DNA from: Spirosoma sp.
GTDB lineage: Bacteria > Bacteroidota > Bacteroidia > Cytophagales > Spirosomataceae
Assembly: GCF_026391055.1 (NCBI RefSeq)
Contig: NZ_JAPLET010000017.1
Location: forward strand, 372,001-436,000
Direction: 5' to 3'
DNA length: 64,000 nucleotides
The notes under the pieces: generated by a model
What the model was told of the DNA's origin: nothing
Seen by the model: the letters and a program-made list of their open reading frames with translations, nothing else
Database searches by the model: none
Position numbers and translations under genes: made by a program
Shown: positions 5,167-11,771 of the stretch, piece by piece
Layout: each line of letters begins with the position of its first letter
Position numbering within the stretch: position 1 is the first letter of the stretch

Positions 5167-7059
5167 CTAATAGGCTCTTACCAGTTTCCCTTCCATAAAG
5201 TTAACGAAGGCCTTATTAACAACATTATTCCCGCCGGGCGTTGGATAATCGCCCGTGAAGTACCAATCGCCGGAATGGTTGGGGCAGGCTTTATGCAGAT
5301 TCTCAACGGTCTGATACACAACTGCAACTTCAGCTTTCAAATCAGCAGGTGTAACAATTTCCGCTACTTTACGCGACAGTTCGTCGTGCGTAAATGGCTC
5401 GAAGACCGCTTTAACGTAGTTCTGCTTGTTGGCATTGCCAGACTCTATCGCAGCCACACATTGGCCGTACACTTCCTCCAGCAGATCCTCCTGGCCCCGA
5501 TCGCGGAGAAGCTCAAGTGCCGCCCGGAAACCAATGAACTCCTTAAACTTCGACATATCAATGCCGTAACAGTCTGGGAAACGAATTTGAGGAGCTGAGG
5601 AAACAATGATAATTTTCTTGGGACCAAGCCGATCCAGCATCCGCAGAATACTCTTCTCCAGCGTAGTACCCCGAACGATGGAGTCATCAACTACAACCAC
5701 ATTATCCTTGCCTTTCTTAATCACCTCGAAGGTAGTGTCATACACGTGCGACACCATATCGTCCCGCTGCGAATCGTCGGCGATAAAGGTGCGCAATTTC
5801 ACATCTTTAGCAACCAGCTTTTCAATCCGTGGCCGGAACGAAAGCACCCGATCCAGTTCCTCTTCGAACAGGATACCATCCATGATGGCTTTCTTACGCT
5901 GCTTGGCCAGGTGGTCTTCCAGCCCTTCCACCATACCGAAGAAAGCGGTTTCTGCTGTATTTGGTATGTAAGAGAAGACGGTATTTTCGAGATCGTAATC
6001 TATTTCTTCGAGAATCTGCGGTATAAGCAGTTTCCCTAACGTCTTGCGTTCGTTGTAAATATCGGGATCGGTAGCCCGTGAGAAGTAAATCCGCTCGAAA
6101 CTGCATGATTTCTTCTCGATAGGCTTCACAAACTCCTGTTCCCTGTATTCACCGTATTTGTCGATGATGAGCGCATGGCCGGGCTTCACTTCCTGTATCG
6201 CGCTGTAGTCGACATTAAAGGCTGTTTTGATGGCGGGTTTTTCAGACGCCACAACAACAACTTCATCATCGGCATAGTAATAAGCGGGACGAATACCGGC
6301 CGGATCGCGAGCTACGAAGGCAGCTCCATAGCCTGTCATACCAACCATGGCGTAGCCACCATCGAAATCACGGCAGGAACGGTGCAGAACGCGCTGTAAA
6401 TCGAGATTATCTTCAATAATATCCGACAGATCGGGATTTTCATAGATACCCTTGAACCGTTCAAACACGCGCTGGTTTTCTTCGTCCAGGAAGTGTCCGA
6501 TTTTCTCCATCACCGTTACGGTGTCAACCTTATCCTTCGGATGTTGACCCAGCGAAACGAGCTTATCGAACAGTTCTTCAACATTCGTCATGTTGAAATT
6601 ACCCGCTACCACCAGATTACGGCTGCGCCAGTTACTTTGCCGGAGCATAGGGTGGCAGTTTTCGATCTCGTTAGCCCCGTGCGTACCGTAGCGCAGGTGG
6701 CCCATCCAGACTTCGCCAGTGAAGGCGATGTTCTCCTGAAGCCATTTAGCGTCTTTAGCTTTGTCTTTATTGCCTTTGAGCGCTTTACGAAATTTTTTAT
6801 TAACCTTTTCGAAGATGTCCGTTACGGGTCGTTGGTCGACGGAACGGTAGCGGCTGATGTAGCGGTGTCCGGCGGGTACATCCAGTTTGATGTTGGCAAT
6901 CCCGGCACCGTCCTGCCCGCGATTGACCTGCTTTTCCATAAGCAGGTAGAGTTTGTTAGCGCCGTAGAGCGCTGTACCGTACTTGTCAATGTAATATTGG
7001 TACGGTTTGCGCAGCCGGATCAGGGCAATACCGCACTCATGTTTGATGGCGTCGCTCAT
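5167..7059 (-). CDS. purF: amidophosphoribosyltransferase-type protein (PurF family, long form)
   Basis: PurF catalyses the first step of purine synthesis, PRPP plus glutamine to phosphoribosylamine. The 630-residue product begins MSDAIKHECGIAL, so Cys9 would be exposed as the N-terminal nucleophile after removal of a short propeptide, as in class II glutamine amidotransferases. NRGQDGAG and GHLRYGTHG match the glutaminase domain. The PRPP loop is VVVVDDSIVRGTT near residue 450. It is longer than the usual 470-510 because of insertions between the domains, a form I associate with Bacteroidota. Some genomes carry a shorter canonical PurF as well, so the exact role is not certain. The start at 7059 is fixed by the catalytic Cys and by a -7 box at 7138-7145. 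Confidence 0.85.
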   Translation of the reverse strand: MSDAIKHECGIALIRLRKPYQYYIDKYGTALYGANKLYLLMEKQVNRGQDGAGIANIKLDVPAGHRYISRYRSVDQRPVTDIFEKVNKKFRKALKGNKDKAKDAKWLQENIAFTGEVWMGHLRYGTHGANEIENCHPMLRQSNWRSRNLVVAGNFNMTNVEELFDKLVSLGQHPKDKVDTVTVMEKIGHFLDEENQRVFERFKGIYENPDLSDIIEDNLDLQRVLHRSCRDFDGGYAMVGMTGYGAAFVARDPAGIRPAYYYADDEVVVVASEKPAIKTAFNVDYSAIQEVKPGHALIIDKYGEYREQEFVKPIEKKSCSFERIYFSRATDPDIYNERKTLGKLLIPQILEEIDYDLENTVFSYIPNTAETAFFGMVEGLEDHLAKQRKKAIMDGILFEEELDRVLSFRPRIEKLVAKDVKLRTFIADDSQRDDMVSHVYDTTFEVIKKGKDNVVVVDDSIVRGTTLEKSILRMLDRLGPKKIIIVSSAPQIRFPDCYGIDMSKFKEFIGFRAALELLRDRGQEDLLEEVYGQCVAAIESGNANKQNYVKAVFEPFTHDELSRKVAEIVTPADLKAEVAVVYQTVENLHKACPNHSGDWYFTGDYPTPGGNNVVNKAFVNFMEGKLVRAY

Positions 7060-7137
7060 GAGGGAGTTTGTCGATGCACGTTGATTTTGATAATACTGAG
7101 GTAACGGCTCTGCTTTGGCAATGGTTCGAGCCCTAAA

Positions 7138-7145
7138 CAAAAGTA
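7138..7145 (-). promoter_or_regulatory. -7 box of purF-type gene (TACTTTTG)
   Basis: Exact TAnnTTTG on the minus strand, 78 nt ahead of the ATG at 7059, implying a leader of about 70 nt. No matching -33 element was found. Confidence 0.5.
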
Positions 7146-7160
7146 GTCAAAAACGATAAG

Positions 7161-7799
7161 CTATTCGTCGCCTGAGTTATTCGCTTTTGTAGCCCACCCA
7201 TACATTAATTGAAATATAATGACGGATGAAATAGTGCCAACCAACGAACCCACGAAAACATCTTCAACAAAATGCTGGAAAAGATACACCCGCGAATACC
7301 CGGCAAGAACGCCTAGTAATAGCCAAATCCAGCCCCTGTTCTTATTTTCATCCAGAAACGCCATTAGACCAAATAAAGCGAAGGCCGTAATGGTGTGGCC
7401 CGATGGAAAGCTGTTGTAGCTGAAAATATCCAAGCCTTCGATGAGGTGATATTGAAAGCTTGAATGTTCAAAATATTTTAGAGGTCGGGGCGAGCCCTTG
7501 AAGACAACCTTCTTCAAAAACTCGGAGATCAGAGTCGACAGTGCGAAACTGGCAAAGGCCATCAACCCGATACGCCTGTTTAAAAAAACGAGAAGGAGAC
7601 AGACCGCAGCAAAAAAAATCCCATCGCCCAGATACGTGATGTACGGAAAAAGGGCGTCGGCAACCGGGCTATTACGCGTATTGACCCACTGCATTAGCTG
7701 CTCCTGAGAATAAATCAATTGCAGTAGGCCAAATAGCAGCAACAGGAAAGCATATGGAAGGAAAAAGAGCCAGTTTTTACGCAAAAAATCAATTACCAT
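7161..7799 (-). CDS. membrane PAP2-family phosphatase
   Basis: A 212-residue integral membrane protein with about five to six hydrophobic segments and the three phosphatase motifs: KGSPRP, PSGHT, and SRVYLFQHFVEDV (SR-x5-H-x3-D). Family members remove phosphate from undecaprenyl pyrophosphate, phosphatidate or phosphatidylglycerophosphate; the substrate cannot be read from sequence. It starts 17 nt after the gldH stop and is probably co-transcribed with it. The ATG at 7799 is chosen; a GTG at 7808 would add three residues. Confidence 0.9.
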   Translation of the reverse strand: MVIDFLRKNWLFFLPYAFLLLLFGLLQLIYSQEQLMQWVNTRNSPVADALFPYITYLGDGIFFAAVCLLLVFLNRRIGLMAFASFALSTLISEFLKKVVFKGSPRPLKYFEHSSFQYHLIEGLDIFSYNSFPSGHTITAFALFGLMAFLDENKNRGWIWLLLGVLAGYSRVYLFQHFVEDVFVGSLVGTISSVIIFQLMYGWATKANNSGDE

Positions 7800-8293: not shown

Positions 8294-8315
8294 AGACCTC
8301 ACTCAAAATAGTACA

Positions 8316-8347
8316 CAAATCTACAACGGGGCGGCTGGCTTTTCAAA
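8316..8347 (-). promoter_or_regulatory. gldH promoter, full Bacteroidota consensus
   Basis: On the minus strand TTTG (8344-8347), a 20-bp spacer, then TAGATTTG (8316-8323). The -33 element overlaps the first copy of the CAAACGATAAAAA direct repeat, so a protein bound there could block gldH. Confidence 0.75.
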
Positions 8348-8386
8348 CGATAAAAAACTACTTAATTAGTTTGCAAACGATAAAAA
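8341..8386. promoter_or_regulatory. putative BlaI operator: direct repeats around an 18-bp palindrome
   Basis: CAAACGATAAAAA occurs at 8344-8356 and again, exactly 30 bp on, at 8374-8386. Between and overlapping them lies AAACTA-N6-TAGTTT (8355-8372). BlaI/MecI repressors bind dyads next to their own promoters, so this is the obvious candidate site. One repeat covers the gldH -33 box, the other lies in the blaI spacer. Confidence 0.55.
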
Positions 8387-8400
8387 TAGTTTTAGATTTG
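8370..8400 (+). promoter_or_regulatory. blaI promoter, full consensus, apparently leaderless
   Basis: TTTG (8370-8373), a 19-bp spacer, then TAGATTTG (8393-8400). Only four T residues separate the -7 box from the ATG at 8405, so transcription should begin at or within a few bases of the start codon. Confidence 0.75.
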
Positions 8401-8404
8401 TTTT

Positions 8405-8764
8405 ATGGAAAAGTTAACGGCTAAAGAAGAAGAAGTCATGCAGGTGCTCTGGAAAATGGAGCAGGGGTATGTGAAAGATATGGTACCCCAGTTTACCAAC
8501 CCACCACTGCATTACAATACGGTTTCAACCATTGTGCGTAACCTCGAAGAAAAGGGCTACATCGGCCACAAAGCATACGGCAACACCCACGAATACTACC
8601 CGATTATCAGCAAAGAAGCCTATCAGAACCGATTTGTCCTGAAAAAAGTAGTCGACGAATATTTTGACAACTCCTACAAGAATCTGGTAAGCTACTTTGC
8701 ACAGAATGAAAAGATTTCGGCCGACGAGCTTCGGGAAATTCTGGCGATGATCGAGAAAAAATAA
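8405..8764 (+). CDS. blaI: BlaI/MecI/CopY-family transcriptional repressor
   Basis: A 119-residue winged-helix repressor opening with the family signature LTAKEEEVMQVLWKMEQG, then NTVSTIVRNLEEKGYIGH as the recognition helix and wing, and a C-terminal dimerisation helix. BlaI proteins repress their own operon until a membrane M56 protease triggers their cleavage. Here the next gene is such an M56 protease, so the two form a signal-repressor pair. No beta-lactamase gene is nearby, so the signal is unlikely to be only antibiotic. Divergent from gldH, with which it shares operator-like sequence. Confidence 0.93.
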   Translation: MEKLTAKEEEVMQVLWKMEQGYVKDMVPQFTNPPLHYNTVSTIVRNLEEKGYIGHKAYGNTHEYYPIISKEAYQNRFVLKKVVDEYFDNSYKNLVSYFAQNEKISADELREILAMIEKK

Positions 8765-8863: not shown

Positions 8864-10762
8864 ATGGAAACCCTACGCTACCTTGTGTTGGTCAACGGTT
8901 TACTAGCCGTTGTAAGTGTTGCCTTCTATATACTGCTCCGGCGGGAAACGTTTTTCAGCACCAATCGACTTGCCTTATGGCTGGGTCTGGCCAGTGCACT
9001 AATTATGCCCCTGGTCGAACTTCCCGACTGGCGTCCGCAGCCCGTGCGTTCGGCGATGCAGCGTACGGCTCAGGTAATTATTCCCAACGTACTTCCTGAG
9101 CCGTACGCTCCGACCCCTGAGGTAACGATCATGTTTCCCAACCGGAAAACTTACCGGGCTTTTCAGGCGCTGCAGCCGCGCTTCGTCTGGTCATGGCAAA
9201 CAGGGATGGCTGTGCTTTACTTCCTTGGCGTCTTTTTGCTATTTGTGCGCTTCGTAAGCCAGTTACTTTCTCTGCGAAAACTCATTCGGGGCTCTACGCT
9301 GGAGCCCTATACTGATTTTATACTGGTACACAATGCCAGCATCACCACTCCTTTCTCCTTTTTCGGCTGGGTGTTTGTTAGTCCAGATCAGCACACAACT
9401 GATGAATTAGATCAGATTCTCCGGCACGAACGGGTTCATGTGCGGGAGCGGCACAGTTTCGATATGCTCGGGGCTGAACTTGTGTGTATTCTTTTCTGGT
9501 ATAATCCGGCGGCTTATCTATTTAGAAAATTGCTTCAGCAGACACTTGAGTTCAGCGCCGACCGGGCTGTACTGGCCGAGGGCATCGACGCCAAACTATA
9601 TCAGTACAATTTATTGAAGGTGAGCCTGGCCGGTGGGCAGTCGTCTCTTACAAATCACTTCAGCAGGTCGCAGCTCAAATCCCGGATTATCATGCTCAAC
9701 CAACCCAAATCCACCAAATTAAGCTGGTTTAAGTACCCTGTCTTTGTATTGGCAGCTTTAACCGTGGCTTCTGCCTTTGCAAGGCCTCAGGTAGAGAAAT
9801 TAGCGAAACATGTAGCGAAACCAATCTCGGATATTTTATCTATTACCGATCAATCCGTGACGAAAAGAATTCCTGAACCTAAGCCAACACCAATGGCTAA
9901 GCTTTCTACTCAGGAAGACATTAATCCCAAGATACCTATAAAAGAAAACCTAGTAACTGATTCGTCACAGTATCAAAGTCAGCAACAGCCTAGCACAGAT
10001 TTAGCTCGGGTGAGTCCCTCTCGTTATATGGTTTATCAGGGAGACTATCTCTACTGGATCGTTACCCCTAAAACTACGTTTGATGATTTCTTTCTAATGA
10101 AGCAGGAGTTTGCTAAACAAGGCTATACCATGCAACTCAATGAAGTAAAACTCGACCCACTGTCTGTATATATTGACCGTGTCAGTTTCACTCTACAACG
10201 ACCAGCTGGTAGTCCAATGCGTTGTGAGGAACTTAACTCTGATGGAAAACCCATTCCAACACTAGCAGGATACATTTATCTTAAAAATGACCAAATAGGT
10301 TCAAGTCGGCTTGAGGGTCGCTATAGTAAGAGATTCCCTTTGTATCAGACTGAGGGTGAAAAGCAGTTTCCTGACTTACTACGTAGCGTTGCTGCTACTG
10401 ATAATGCTACTATGTGGTGGTCAATAAATGAAAAAGGAATGGAATACATGGTTCTTGATGGTCAGCGTAAATATGGCCACTTGGGTAGTGGGTTCCGCAG
10501 ATTCGATAAAGAAGACGTAAAGAGGCTATCCAGTTTAGGAGATGCGATAACTGTCCGTACAGATGGCTCTATATCTGTGAATAATGCGGCAAATGACGTT
10601 GAAGTTTTCATTAATAATGAACCCGTTTCTTCTGAAGCTATCCAGCAGTGGAAAATTAGCCAGCTTTACACCGTCGCGTCCATCTTGGGGTACGATTCAG
10701 CTACGAACAAACGTTCGGGAATAACGTATTTACTTTTTTACGTTGAGAGGCCTAATAAATAA
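8864..10762 (+). CDS. BlaR1-type M56 membrane metalloprotease sensor
   Basis: A 632-residue membrane protein. The N-terminal ~290 residues hold four or so transmembrane segments and the M56 zinc-protease site HERVH (about residues 188-192) followed by RERHSFDMLGAELVCILFWYNP. A final membrane segment (FKYPVFVLAALTVASAFA) precedes a periplasmic C-terminal half without a penicillin-binding domain. That half ends in a short module with EVFINNEPV, which recurs in the next gene. It should sense an envelope signal and lead to cleavage of the BlaI repressor encoded 99 bp upstream. The ligand is unknown. Confidence 0.88.
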   Translation: METLRYLVLVNGLLAVVSVAFYILLRRETFFSTNRLALWLGLASALIMPLVELPDWRPQPVRSAMQRTAQVIIPNVLPEPYAPTPEVTIMFPNRKTYRAFQALQPRFVWSWQTGMAVLYFLGVFLLFVRFVSQLLSLRKLIRGSTLEPYTDFILVHNASITTPFSFFGWVFVSPDQHTTDELDQILRHERVHVRERHSFDMLGAELVCILFWYNPAAYLFRKLLQQTLEFSADRAVLAEGIDAKLYQYNLLKVSLAGGQSSLTNHFSRSQLKSRIIMLNQPKSTKLSWFKYPVFVLAALTVASAFARPQVEKLAKHVAKPISDILSITDQSVTKRIPEPKPTPMAKLSTQEDINPKIPIKENLVTDSSQYQSQQQPSTDLARVSPSRYMVYQGDYLYWIVTPKTTFDDFFLMKQEFAKQGYTMQLNEVKLDPLSVYIDRVSFTLQRPAGSPMRCEELNSDGKPIPTLAGYIYLKNDQIGSSRLEGRYSKRFPLYQTEGEKQFPDLLRSVAATDNATMWWSINEKGMEYMVLDGQRKYGHLGSGFRRFDKEDVKRLSSLGDAITVRTDGSISVNNAANDVEVFINNEPVSSEAIQQWKISQLYTVASILGYDSATNKRSGITYLLFYVERPNK

Positions 10763-10770
10763 ACGGTTGT

Positions 10771-11730
10771 ATGTATTCCTTCACCAACCAGTTCAGCGGC
10801 CCTACCCTACACCAGCGGGTCGGTATGATTAATAGTCGGCGCTCCGGACCGTGGGCATGGTGGCGGTATGCACTTTGGGTAGTACTCATGGGTTGCATAG
10901 TGCTGGCCTGCCAACATGAAGTTCGGGAGCATGTTTACATTCCGGGTGAGACACGAAAGTCAAAGACCCTGGCGGCTACCAGCCCTACGCGGGCACGCGT
11001 TGTTGAGCTGGAGGATAAAAAGACATGGTACCGCCATTTGGCCCTGTTTGAGAATAAAATCGGGACGGCAGTCGTGCGGAGTAAACCCATCATTTTATGT
11101 CTTAAAGCGGACCATTTTGTACTGCCTGACGATTATAAGTACGAATCGGCAATCTACATTGATGGAGAAGAAGCGTCCGTAGAAGATCTGGAAAAGCTGT
11201 CGCCGGAGTTCGTTAGCGAGCTGTTTGTCATGCACCAGTGGGAGAACATGCCCGATGCTGACAAACAGGCTAAACCCTATCAGATACTGATACAGACCAG
11301 TTCCAGACCTGTTATTTTTAATGAGCGACGTAAGCAGTTTTTCACCTTATTGCAGGCAGCCGCTTTGTCAAAGCATCCACTGGGTGAAACCTTCTCATTC
11401 AACATGAATCAGTTGCTCGAAGCCACCTTTTTCCATGACAAAAACGCCCTTGTCGAACGGACTAAGAACGAGCACCTGCGCATTTATGACGAATGCACCG
11501 GTACAACGGAGGTCTTTATCAATAACTTACCTGCTACACCAGCTGACGTAAAGACCGTTCATGTTCGGGAGGTGGCGCGGCTTTATACTAAAGAACGTCC
11601 TTACGACGAGTGGTTCCGCGCCGATTACCCCTCACCACGTTTTGAACTACATATTGAAACAACGCCAAAACGCGCTAAACGCGACACTAGTCACTACGTT
11701 TTCAGTCCGTTTTATACTGGTGATTTCTAG
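10771..11730 (+). CDS. headless paralogue of the M56 sensor C-terminal half, lipoprotein-like
   Basis: A 319-residue protein without a protease domain. Its first ~48 residues line up with the end of the upstream sensor's core: SFTNQFS with SLTNHFS, then a Met-Asn motif, a Trp/Lys-Tyr and a hydrophobic segment. The hydrophobic segment here ends in IVLAC, a possible lipobox. Two plug-like modules follow (YIDGEEASVEDLEKL and EVFINNLPATPADV), similar to the short TonB-plug fold seen at the end of such sensors. It starts 8 nt after the sensor gene and must be co-transcribed. It looks like a partial duplication that kept only the sensory part. A second start at 10825 would give a shorter lipoprotein. 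Confidence 0.75.
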   Translation: MYSFTNQFSGPTLHQRVGMINSRRSGPWAWWRYALWVVLMGCIVLACQHEVREHVYIPGETRKSKTLAATSPTRARVVELEDKKTWYRHLALFENKIGTAVVRSKPIILCLKADHFVLPDDYKYESAIYIDGEEASVEDLEKLSPEFVSELFVMHQWENMPDADKQAKPYQILIQTSSRPVIFNERRKQFFTLLQAAALSKHPLGETFSFNMNQLLEATFFHDKNALVERTKNEHLRIYDECTGTTEVFINNLPATPADVKTVHVREVARLYTKERPYDEWFRADYPSPRFELHIETTPKRAKRDTSHYVFSPFYTGDF

Positions 11731-11771
11731 AAACAACAAACCCCGGCCAAATTGGTCGGGGTTTGTTGTTT
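11731..11771. terminator. 20-bp bidirectional terminator
   Basis: AAACAACAAACCCCGGCCAA (11731-11750) pairs with 11752-11771 with one G-U. The A-rich/T-rich ends make it work in both directions. It abuts the convergent stops at 11730 and 11770; the latter stop codon is inside the arm. Confidence 0.9.

Follow-up and report, generated by a model that had tools for sequence, protein, structure and literature searches.

We analysed a 64,000-nucleotide (nt) stretch of a Spirosoma genome (assembly GCF_026391055.1, contig NZ_JAPLET010000017.1, positions 372,001 to 436,000; hereafter the window), in which the gene of a BlaI-type repressor is followed by that of an M56 sensor-protease and, 8 nt after the stop codon of the latter, by a third open reading frame (ORF) at 10771-11730. 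From sequence comparison it appears probable that this ORF encodes the detached tail of a split BlaR1-type receptor, in which tails dock on the protease in trans. Two observations speak for this reading. The same periplasmic body is part of the protease chain (in cis) in 20 and the product of a separate gene (in trans) in 34 of 54 genomes, and fusion of this kind is expected of partners; moreover, the detached tail is kept under selection, also beside proteases without a tail of their own. An earlier interpretation, made from the window's sequence only (the sequence-only reading), had seen in the ORF a partial tandem duplication of the sensor's sensory half, perhaps a co-receptor or decoy. A co-receptor beside the protease is still the best reading, and the decoy is ranked below among the rivals.

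The beginning of the ORF product was found to align with residues 261-296 of the sensor (36 residues, 36% identity; BLASTP expectation value, E, 5e-5), that is, with its last membrane segment and the residues before it, as had been claimed. When profiles of the two families were compared by hhalign (18 rows of the family of the detached tail, termed CT-B, vs 7 rows of the protease's own tail), the first 48 columns aligned with a probability of 97.3 and an E of 2.1e-11, and nothing aligned past this head. The sequence-only reading was also right that the second gene lacks the protease domain, sensing and proteolysis being encoded apart. Of the similarity it had expected between the two C-terminal halves, only the head (about 48 residues) stands; the body does not, and the proposed shared modules with EVFINN reduce to a 34-residue BLASTP match at E 0.063. 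Because the periplasmic body belongs to a family distinct from the sensor's own tail, the detached gene is not a copy of the sensor's sensory half.

The seam between protease and tail was located by aligning the window sensor with Staphylococcus aureus BlaR1 (PDB 8exp; E 0.002), which places LSHS283/F284NGKKSLLKRR294L of BlaR1 over TNH/FSRSQLKSRI of the sensor (the slash marks the BlaR1 cleavage site and its equivalents). The detached tail reads TNQ/FSGPTLHQRV at this point, and its link to BlaR1 runs through the sensor head, BlaR1 having been aligned to the M56 protein rather than to the ORF. Passages of the BlaR1 paper (PMC9834060) describe a spontaneous cleavage in cis between S283 and F284, a loop that, cut or uncut, fills the active site and keeps BlaI out, and a domain-swapped dimer whose chains exchange helix α9 and the terminal membrane helix α10, with Arg294 pairing with Asp246 of the partner chain. 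By this alignment the seam would be the BlaR1 autocleavage loop (S283/F284). Given the seam alignment and the swap of α9-α10, the detached gene, which starts seven residues before the cleavage site, appears to represent the domain-swapped unit of BlaR1 (α9, α10) plus a sensor.

The residues concerned are conserved among relatives. A Phe stands at P1' in 108/108 heads and the Arg294 equivalent in 106/108, a set that was chosen by the head profile and includes two broken pieces and one duplicate; its 23 heads labelled transX include the broken piece of genome G006, a remnant in G027 and a contig-cut second copy of the G026 head. Phe, Arg and a Met before the membrane segment are conserved in the heads, and the Phe-bearing loop is kept in all 34 separate CT-B heads. 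In the window the predicted P1' residue of the sensor is Phe266 (9659-9661), with the hydropathy peak of its last membrane helix at residues 286-306; the landmarks of the detached tail are Phe8 (the P1' equivalent, 10792-10794), Arg16 (the Arg294 equivalent, 10816-10818) and Cys47. On the protease side, zinc and loop-contact residues were found by pattern in 52/55 protease halves, and in the three misses the Tyr is visible by eye after a different preceding residue. The detached gene had been thought to have gained a lipobox. The membrane helix ends in a Cys in 17/20 fused and 31/34 separate CT-B proteins; since the fused forms carry it too, it is an old trait of CT-B and no gain in the detached form took place, and Cys47 is a marginal lipobox candidate, the residues before it not being those of a typical one. 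Head similarity within genomes gave permutation p values of 0.17 in the window's genus, 0.65-0.84 in genus g22 and 0.03-0.04 in genus g30. Concerted evolution of the heads within the operon, a possibility prompted by near-identical heads in g30 and in G013/G026, was rejected on these weak or negative tests.

The CT-B body ends in a stretch (YVFSPFYxGDF) whose 11 columns are invariant but for one in an alignment of 18 members. The ORF has no Pfam match, and no convincing Pfam or PDB match was obtained for the family: a PDB profile search returned two ScpA chains (E 0.0036 and 0.032, over 84 and 72 positions), and the Pfam matches across members were scattered single ones that we did not believe. 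A Pfam Plug match was seen in 1/18 members (E 0.039), and comparison with a small plug-like family gave an hhalign probability of 10.8 (E 0.0028), by which a plug-like fold is only hinted at. No second CT-B copy was found in the window's own genome, the sole other match at E <= 10 being the sensor's own head (E 0.2). In some genomes a small gene, whose product ends in a plug-like stretch and probably begins with a signal peptide, lies 3' of the tail genes (L077:6961-7377 and L102:2864-3307, with equivalents in L083, L084, L088, L090, L093, L098 and L103); three members scanned had no Pfam match.

To follow the detached tail through the genus, the ORF was sought in 36 genomes, 33 of which gave a match, and the sensor likewise; 36 stretches from 35 genomes were annotated, G031 having no such locus. 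CT-B is fused to the M56 protease at the seam in 16/35 genomes; 12/35 have an M56 protein with another tail plus a separate CT-B, and in 3/35 (G008, G015, G030) the M56 gene stops at or near the seam and a separate CT-B is present. G006 (1/35) has lost the protease half and its CT-B is broken too; together with G019, G024 and G027, which have no CT-B state, it was counted as neither fused nor separate. In terms of synteny, which the sequence-only reading had named as a check, the gene is separate in 15/35 genomes, and in 16/35 its body forms the C-terminal end of the protease itself. In the taxonomic family 57/222 genomes matched (G098 and G027 among them aligning at the head only), and the 54 with an intact CT-B belong to 7 genera, the separate versions occurring in five (g1, g11, g22, g30 and g36). 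Since the body is fused in 16 of the genus genomes and separate versions are spread over five genera, the arrangement is old, and the detached gene is the conserved tail, older than the genus.

Repeated switching between the two states was seen in three trees. The fused state needs 6 changes on a tree of flanking genes (four genes, 38 genomes), 5 of them forced by its starred branches; on the CT-B tree (54 rows) 11 cis/trans changes are needed and 5 forced, and on the protease-half tree (55 rows, 52 scored) 9 and 3. These are quick trees with support from the Shimodaira-Hasegawa-like approximate likelihood-ratio test (SH-aLRT), and the direction of a switch depends on the root. With g30 as outgroup of the protease-half tree, the first-branching groups g30, g36 and g22 carry separate tails, for which reason the separate state is likely the older and fusion the repeated event. 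In G030 out-of-frame remains of a CT-A end (CT-A being the sensor's own tail) persist in the stretch that parts the stopped protease from the detached tail, so that in this genome, at least, the split arose when the protease lost its own tail. As relatives repeatedly carry the same tail fused or detached at the same place, the comparison suggests that the parts for sensing and for cutting can be combined in different ways.

Two further observations concern M56 genes of relatives. In G009 and G021 (L073, L085, about 6100-7700) a histidine-kinase-like gene lies 3' of the fused sensor, and no ricT-like gene was matched within the fetched stretch. The M56 gene of G104 has one in-frame stop near the seam (L153:2545-2547), which may reflect a mutation, an error of sequencing or an incipient split.

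Purifying selection acts on the detached tail at dS values from 0.3 to beyond saturation. In pairwise Nei-Gojobori estimates the ratio of nonsynonymous to synonymous divergence (dN/dS) was 0.072-0.096 for the CT-B body in 8/9 pairs, the ninth being saturated, 0-0.16 for the head in 9/9 pairs, and 0.096-0.136 for the protease half in intact pairs (one pair saturated). The protease's own tail, by comparison, is hypervariable. The window and G010, its nearest relative, share 93% identity in the protease half, 94% in the detached body and 46% in the own tail; for G001/G022 the values are 94, 95 and 27%. Over 12 genomes the own tail was the less conserved part in 63/66 pairs, with medians of 67% for the protease, 29% for the own tail and 54% for the detached body. 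It is also poorer in guanine plus cytosine (G+C) than the protease half in 15/15 genomes and than the detached body in 12/12. In a sister species (window 9785-10759 vs L074) the C-terminal module of the own tail differs, ending in LLFYV vs LLIYT, and seems to have been exchanged as a block.

Tail-less proteases adjoining a detached tail were found in G150, G151, G008 and G015; their motifs are intact and they end some 5-8 residues before the corresponding Phe. Tail-less proteases are still under purifying selection: between G150 and G151 dN/dS was 0.122 for the protease half and 0.086 for the tail at a dS of about 1.2-1.35, and against relatives it was 0.075/0.078 for G015, 0.057/0.061 for G008 and 0.140 for G030, values that mix branches with and without a tail, several at dS >1.

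Tails are more numerous in some other genera. Behind the M56 gene of g30 genomes stand two to four tail genes, all of them with a head and the last being CT-B (G196, G197, G198, G199, G201, G202 and G205, where one tail is cut short; the G206 locus is on a short contig). Of a second tail family in g30, 5 members are in cis and 11 in trans (35% identity, 70% coverage). Six g22 genomes (G168, G170, G173, G169, G172, G175) have one extra tail before CT-B, cut to 245 residues in G169; in G169, G172 and G175 (L120, L122, L123) a gene of 981-1023 residues, peptidase-M16-like by eye, lies between the two. At another M56 locus, in G192, G193 and G174, the separate protein joins the head to the C-terminal domain of TonB; the two of the three that were scanned match Pfam TonB_C at E 6.2e-19 (L150) and 4.7e-17 (L152). 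This tail lies at L150:3438-4040, also in L151 and L152, and the M56 protein of L150 has carboxypeptidase-regulatory-like and plug domains.

In 390 genomes of the order, the other-family matches, among those listed, cover the head end only, in frames of M56 length. Nine short-frame cases opened there comprise the three TonB_C tails, the in-frame stop of G104, a G208 array with a broken CT-B and four short-tailed M56 proteins (G391, G311, G273, G469). The head profile matched 47 of 296 genomes of the phylum, and the short-frame cases opened there were a frameshifted M56 (G736), a second M56 gene (G665) and an M56 with a short tail (G608). No clear detached tail outside the taxonomic family was found in these order and phylum searches, made with a profile tuned to this family.

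How a periplasmic event reaches the protease of a BlaR1-type receptor is debated, as is the part played by autocleavage. Under the split-receptor reading the detached tail would insert in the inner membrane and its α9-α10 would dock on the M56 protease, taking the place of the protease's own tail or lying beside it. Such docking would be expected of a free tail because the BlaR1 tail can stay in place without a covalent link, with its α9-α10 on the other chain. The loop with its Phe would then lie in the active (zinc) site, like the loop of BlaR1; a periplasmic signal sensed by the CT-B body would move the loop and so reach the protease, which would cut the BlaI repressor and derepress the operon. 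The window's protease would have two tails at its service, the cis tail changing fast and the trans tail conserved. A wider version, which we put forward tentatively, is a combinatorial receptor in which one M56 protease is served by one cis tail and one to four trans tails through the same loop-α9-α10 plug, with bacteria of the family retuning what is sensed through exchange, addition or renewed fusion of tails at the autocleavage seam and keeping protease, repressor and operator constant.

Several findings weigh against the split-receptor reading. G019, G024 and G027 (3/35) keep the protease with another tail, their CT-B being absent or a 31-residue remnant; CT-B is thus dispensable where the protease has another tail, which argues against a partnership that is simple and obligatory. 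G171 has an intact CT-B with a degenerate head and an M56 gene about 17 kilobases upstream, the presence of which ruled it out as a natural protease-free control. The counts over the 108 heads come from a profile-selected set, and for those g30 rows that carry a loop insertion the placing of the Phe column is ambiguous. Inside genomes, protease heads and detached-tail heads show no clear co-variation, a weak point, and structure models from a single sequence and from three sequences were both poor (mean predicted local distance difference test, pLDDT, 34.6 and 37.0).

One alternative explanation, which we consider unlikely, is that the detached gene encodes a decoy or built-in inhibitor, its loop, with Phe at P1', plugging the active site and damping BlaI cleavage while the body is a mere anchor. 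The retention of the Phe loop in every separate CT-B head would suit it, as would the BlaR1 loop that, in the passages of PMC9834060 cited above, occupies the active site and keeps BlaI out. An anchor, however, needs neither a body dN/dS of 0.07-0.10 nor to serve as the protease's own C-terminus in 20/54 genomes.

Also unlikely, and ranked after the decoy, is an independent co-receptor, an anchored or lipidated periplasmic protein that would meet the sensor's own tail outside the membrane, its head being an anchor left from an old fusion. The conserved Cys after the membrane helix and the TonB-type and plug-type tails at other M56 loci of the taxonomic family fit this scenario, but the conservation of cytoplasmic loop and helix residues (Phe, Arg, Met) and the low dN/dS of the head are more than an anchor needs, and a tail-less protease offers the detached tail nothing to meet.

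An improbable third scenario is that of a cassette store or displaced remnant, like Rhs orphan tips, in which the detached tail matters only once recombined onto a protease. It would account for the repeated cis/trans switches at one seam and for the hypervariable, G+C-poor cis tail. Against it, the separate CT-B begins at a start of its own, which lies 2-12 nt past the M56 stop in 13/14 genus loci measured, with start and stop overlapping by 4 nt in 11/49 neighbouring gene pairs; it is under purifying selection over the whole range of dS given above, and broken copies (G006, G027, and G208 in g30) are a minority. The partial tandem duplication first proposed, for which the head homology at E 5e-5 speaks, is highly improbable, given bodies not detectably related by profile, a gene older than the genus and the same body fused to the orthologous protease in 16/35 relatives; the head itself may go back to an older duplication.

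The features of the locus are collected in the table below. The gldH-like gene lies upstream on the other strand and a ricT-like PSP1 gene downstream.

Table. Features of the split-receptor locus; positions are those of the window.
Feature	Position	Strand	Basis and remarks
Operator-like palindromic stretch	8365..8391	+	TAGTTTGCAAAC core at 8367-8378, then TAGATTTG just 5' of blaI start
BlaI/MecI-type repressor	8405..8764	+	Pfam Penicillinase_R, E 3.3e-28; directly 5' of the M56 gene
M56 sensor-protease ORF	8864-10762	+	632 residues; Pfam Peptidase_M56, E 6e-18 over residues 19-278
M56 protease half of sensor (residues 1-258)	8864..9637	+	Pfam M56; HERVH at residue 188, EFSAD at residue 229; BlaR1 8exp alignment, E 0.002
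Sensor seam/head	9644..9784	+	Putative autocleavage-loop part, juxtamembrane helix and last membrane helix; BlaR1 alignment, head profile
Sensor's own (cis) periplasmic tail, CT-A	9785..10759	+	G+C 41.4%, hypervariable; G+C profile, divergence
Probable detached (trans) tail gene, CT-B family	10771..11730	+	319 residues; ORF, fused/separate relatives, purifying selection
Head of detached tail	10777..10917	+	Membrane helix about residues 29-47; match to sensor head by profile, residue statistics
CT-B periplasmic body	10918..11727	+	C-terminal end YVFSPFYTGDF
Terminator-like hairpin	11731..11771	+	19 pairs; operon end, before the convergent ricT-like gene

The repressor is 84-100% identical across the genus loci, and an operator-like stretch 5' of blaI was recognisable in 46 loci (by eye, without a statistic). 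A derived operator pattern, allowing up to 3 mismatches, matched the locus with 1 mismatch forward and 3 in reverse and two other places in the window's genome with 3 mismatches each, the backward-pattern controls giving 0; the 12-base core alone, at 2 mismatches, occurs in the window at chance level (7 vs 7.07 expected). Terminator-like sites numbered 3 vs 4.7 expected in shuffles, and only the one behind the detached tail gene has a long stem. The conserved operator-like palindrome lies between blaI and the divergent gldH-like gene (8303-8404), where a sigma-70-like match was seen on the - strand (8346-8318); BlaI could also touch gldH, a gene of gliding and type IX secretion. A paper on beta-lactam resistance in Spirosoma (PMC8225782) was checked for a link to BlaI, and its relevant passages concern other genes.

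Among known systems, S. aureus BlaR1 (PDB 8exp; PMC9834060) is the closest in design: it shares with the window an adjacent BlaI-type repressor, the HExxH and ExxxD motifs, a last membrane helix, a C-terminal extracytoplasmic domain and, by sequence alignment only, a loop with a bulky Phe at P1' and an Arg294 equivalent (the Arg in LKSRI). The window sensor has no transpeptidase-type Pfam match at E <= 1 and scores far below the cut-offs of the NCBIfam BlaR1/MecR1 models, and we take it to be an M56 sensor and not a beta-lactam BlaR1. MecR2 (PMC3406092) is reportedly likewise a separate protein that aids an M56/repressor system, an anti-repressor promoting MecI proteolysis; compared by description only, nothing suggests that it carries the head of an M56 tail. 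The displaced C-terminal ends of Rhs genes (PMC2935791) offer a likeness in genetic layout, with a conserved core gene, exchangeable ends and detached ends downstream, whereas the detached end here is conserved and selected, has its own start and would serve in signalling. Within the same taxonomic family, M56 proteins with plug or TonB_C tails (L150, L152) place periplasmic domains behind the same head, at another locus and with another tail family. Split or arrayed M56 tails were not reported among the open-licence papers listed, and a protease served by several tails would be a modular multi-input receptor of a kind not met there. BlaR1 itself becomes two pieces by spontaneous autocleavage, according to passages of PMC9834060; here the tail piece is a gene of its own, the tails are by Pfam no penicillin-binding domains, and one protease can adjoin several. 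Here evolution did the cutting, splitting protease half and tail a few residues from the BlaR1 cleavage site and keeping them so, and such a natural two-piece receptor would make it possible to ask if protease and sensor must be covalently joined and if one tail can be exchanged for another.

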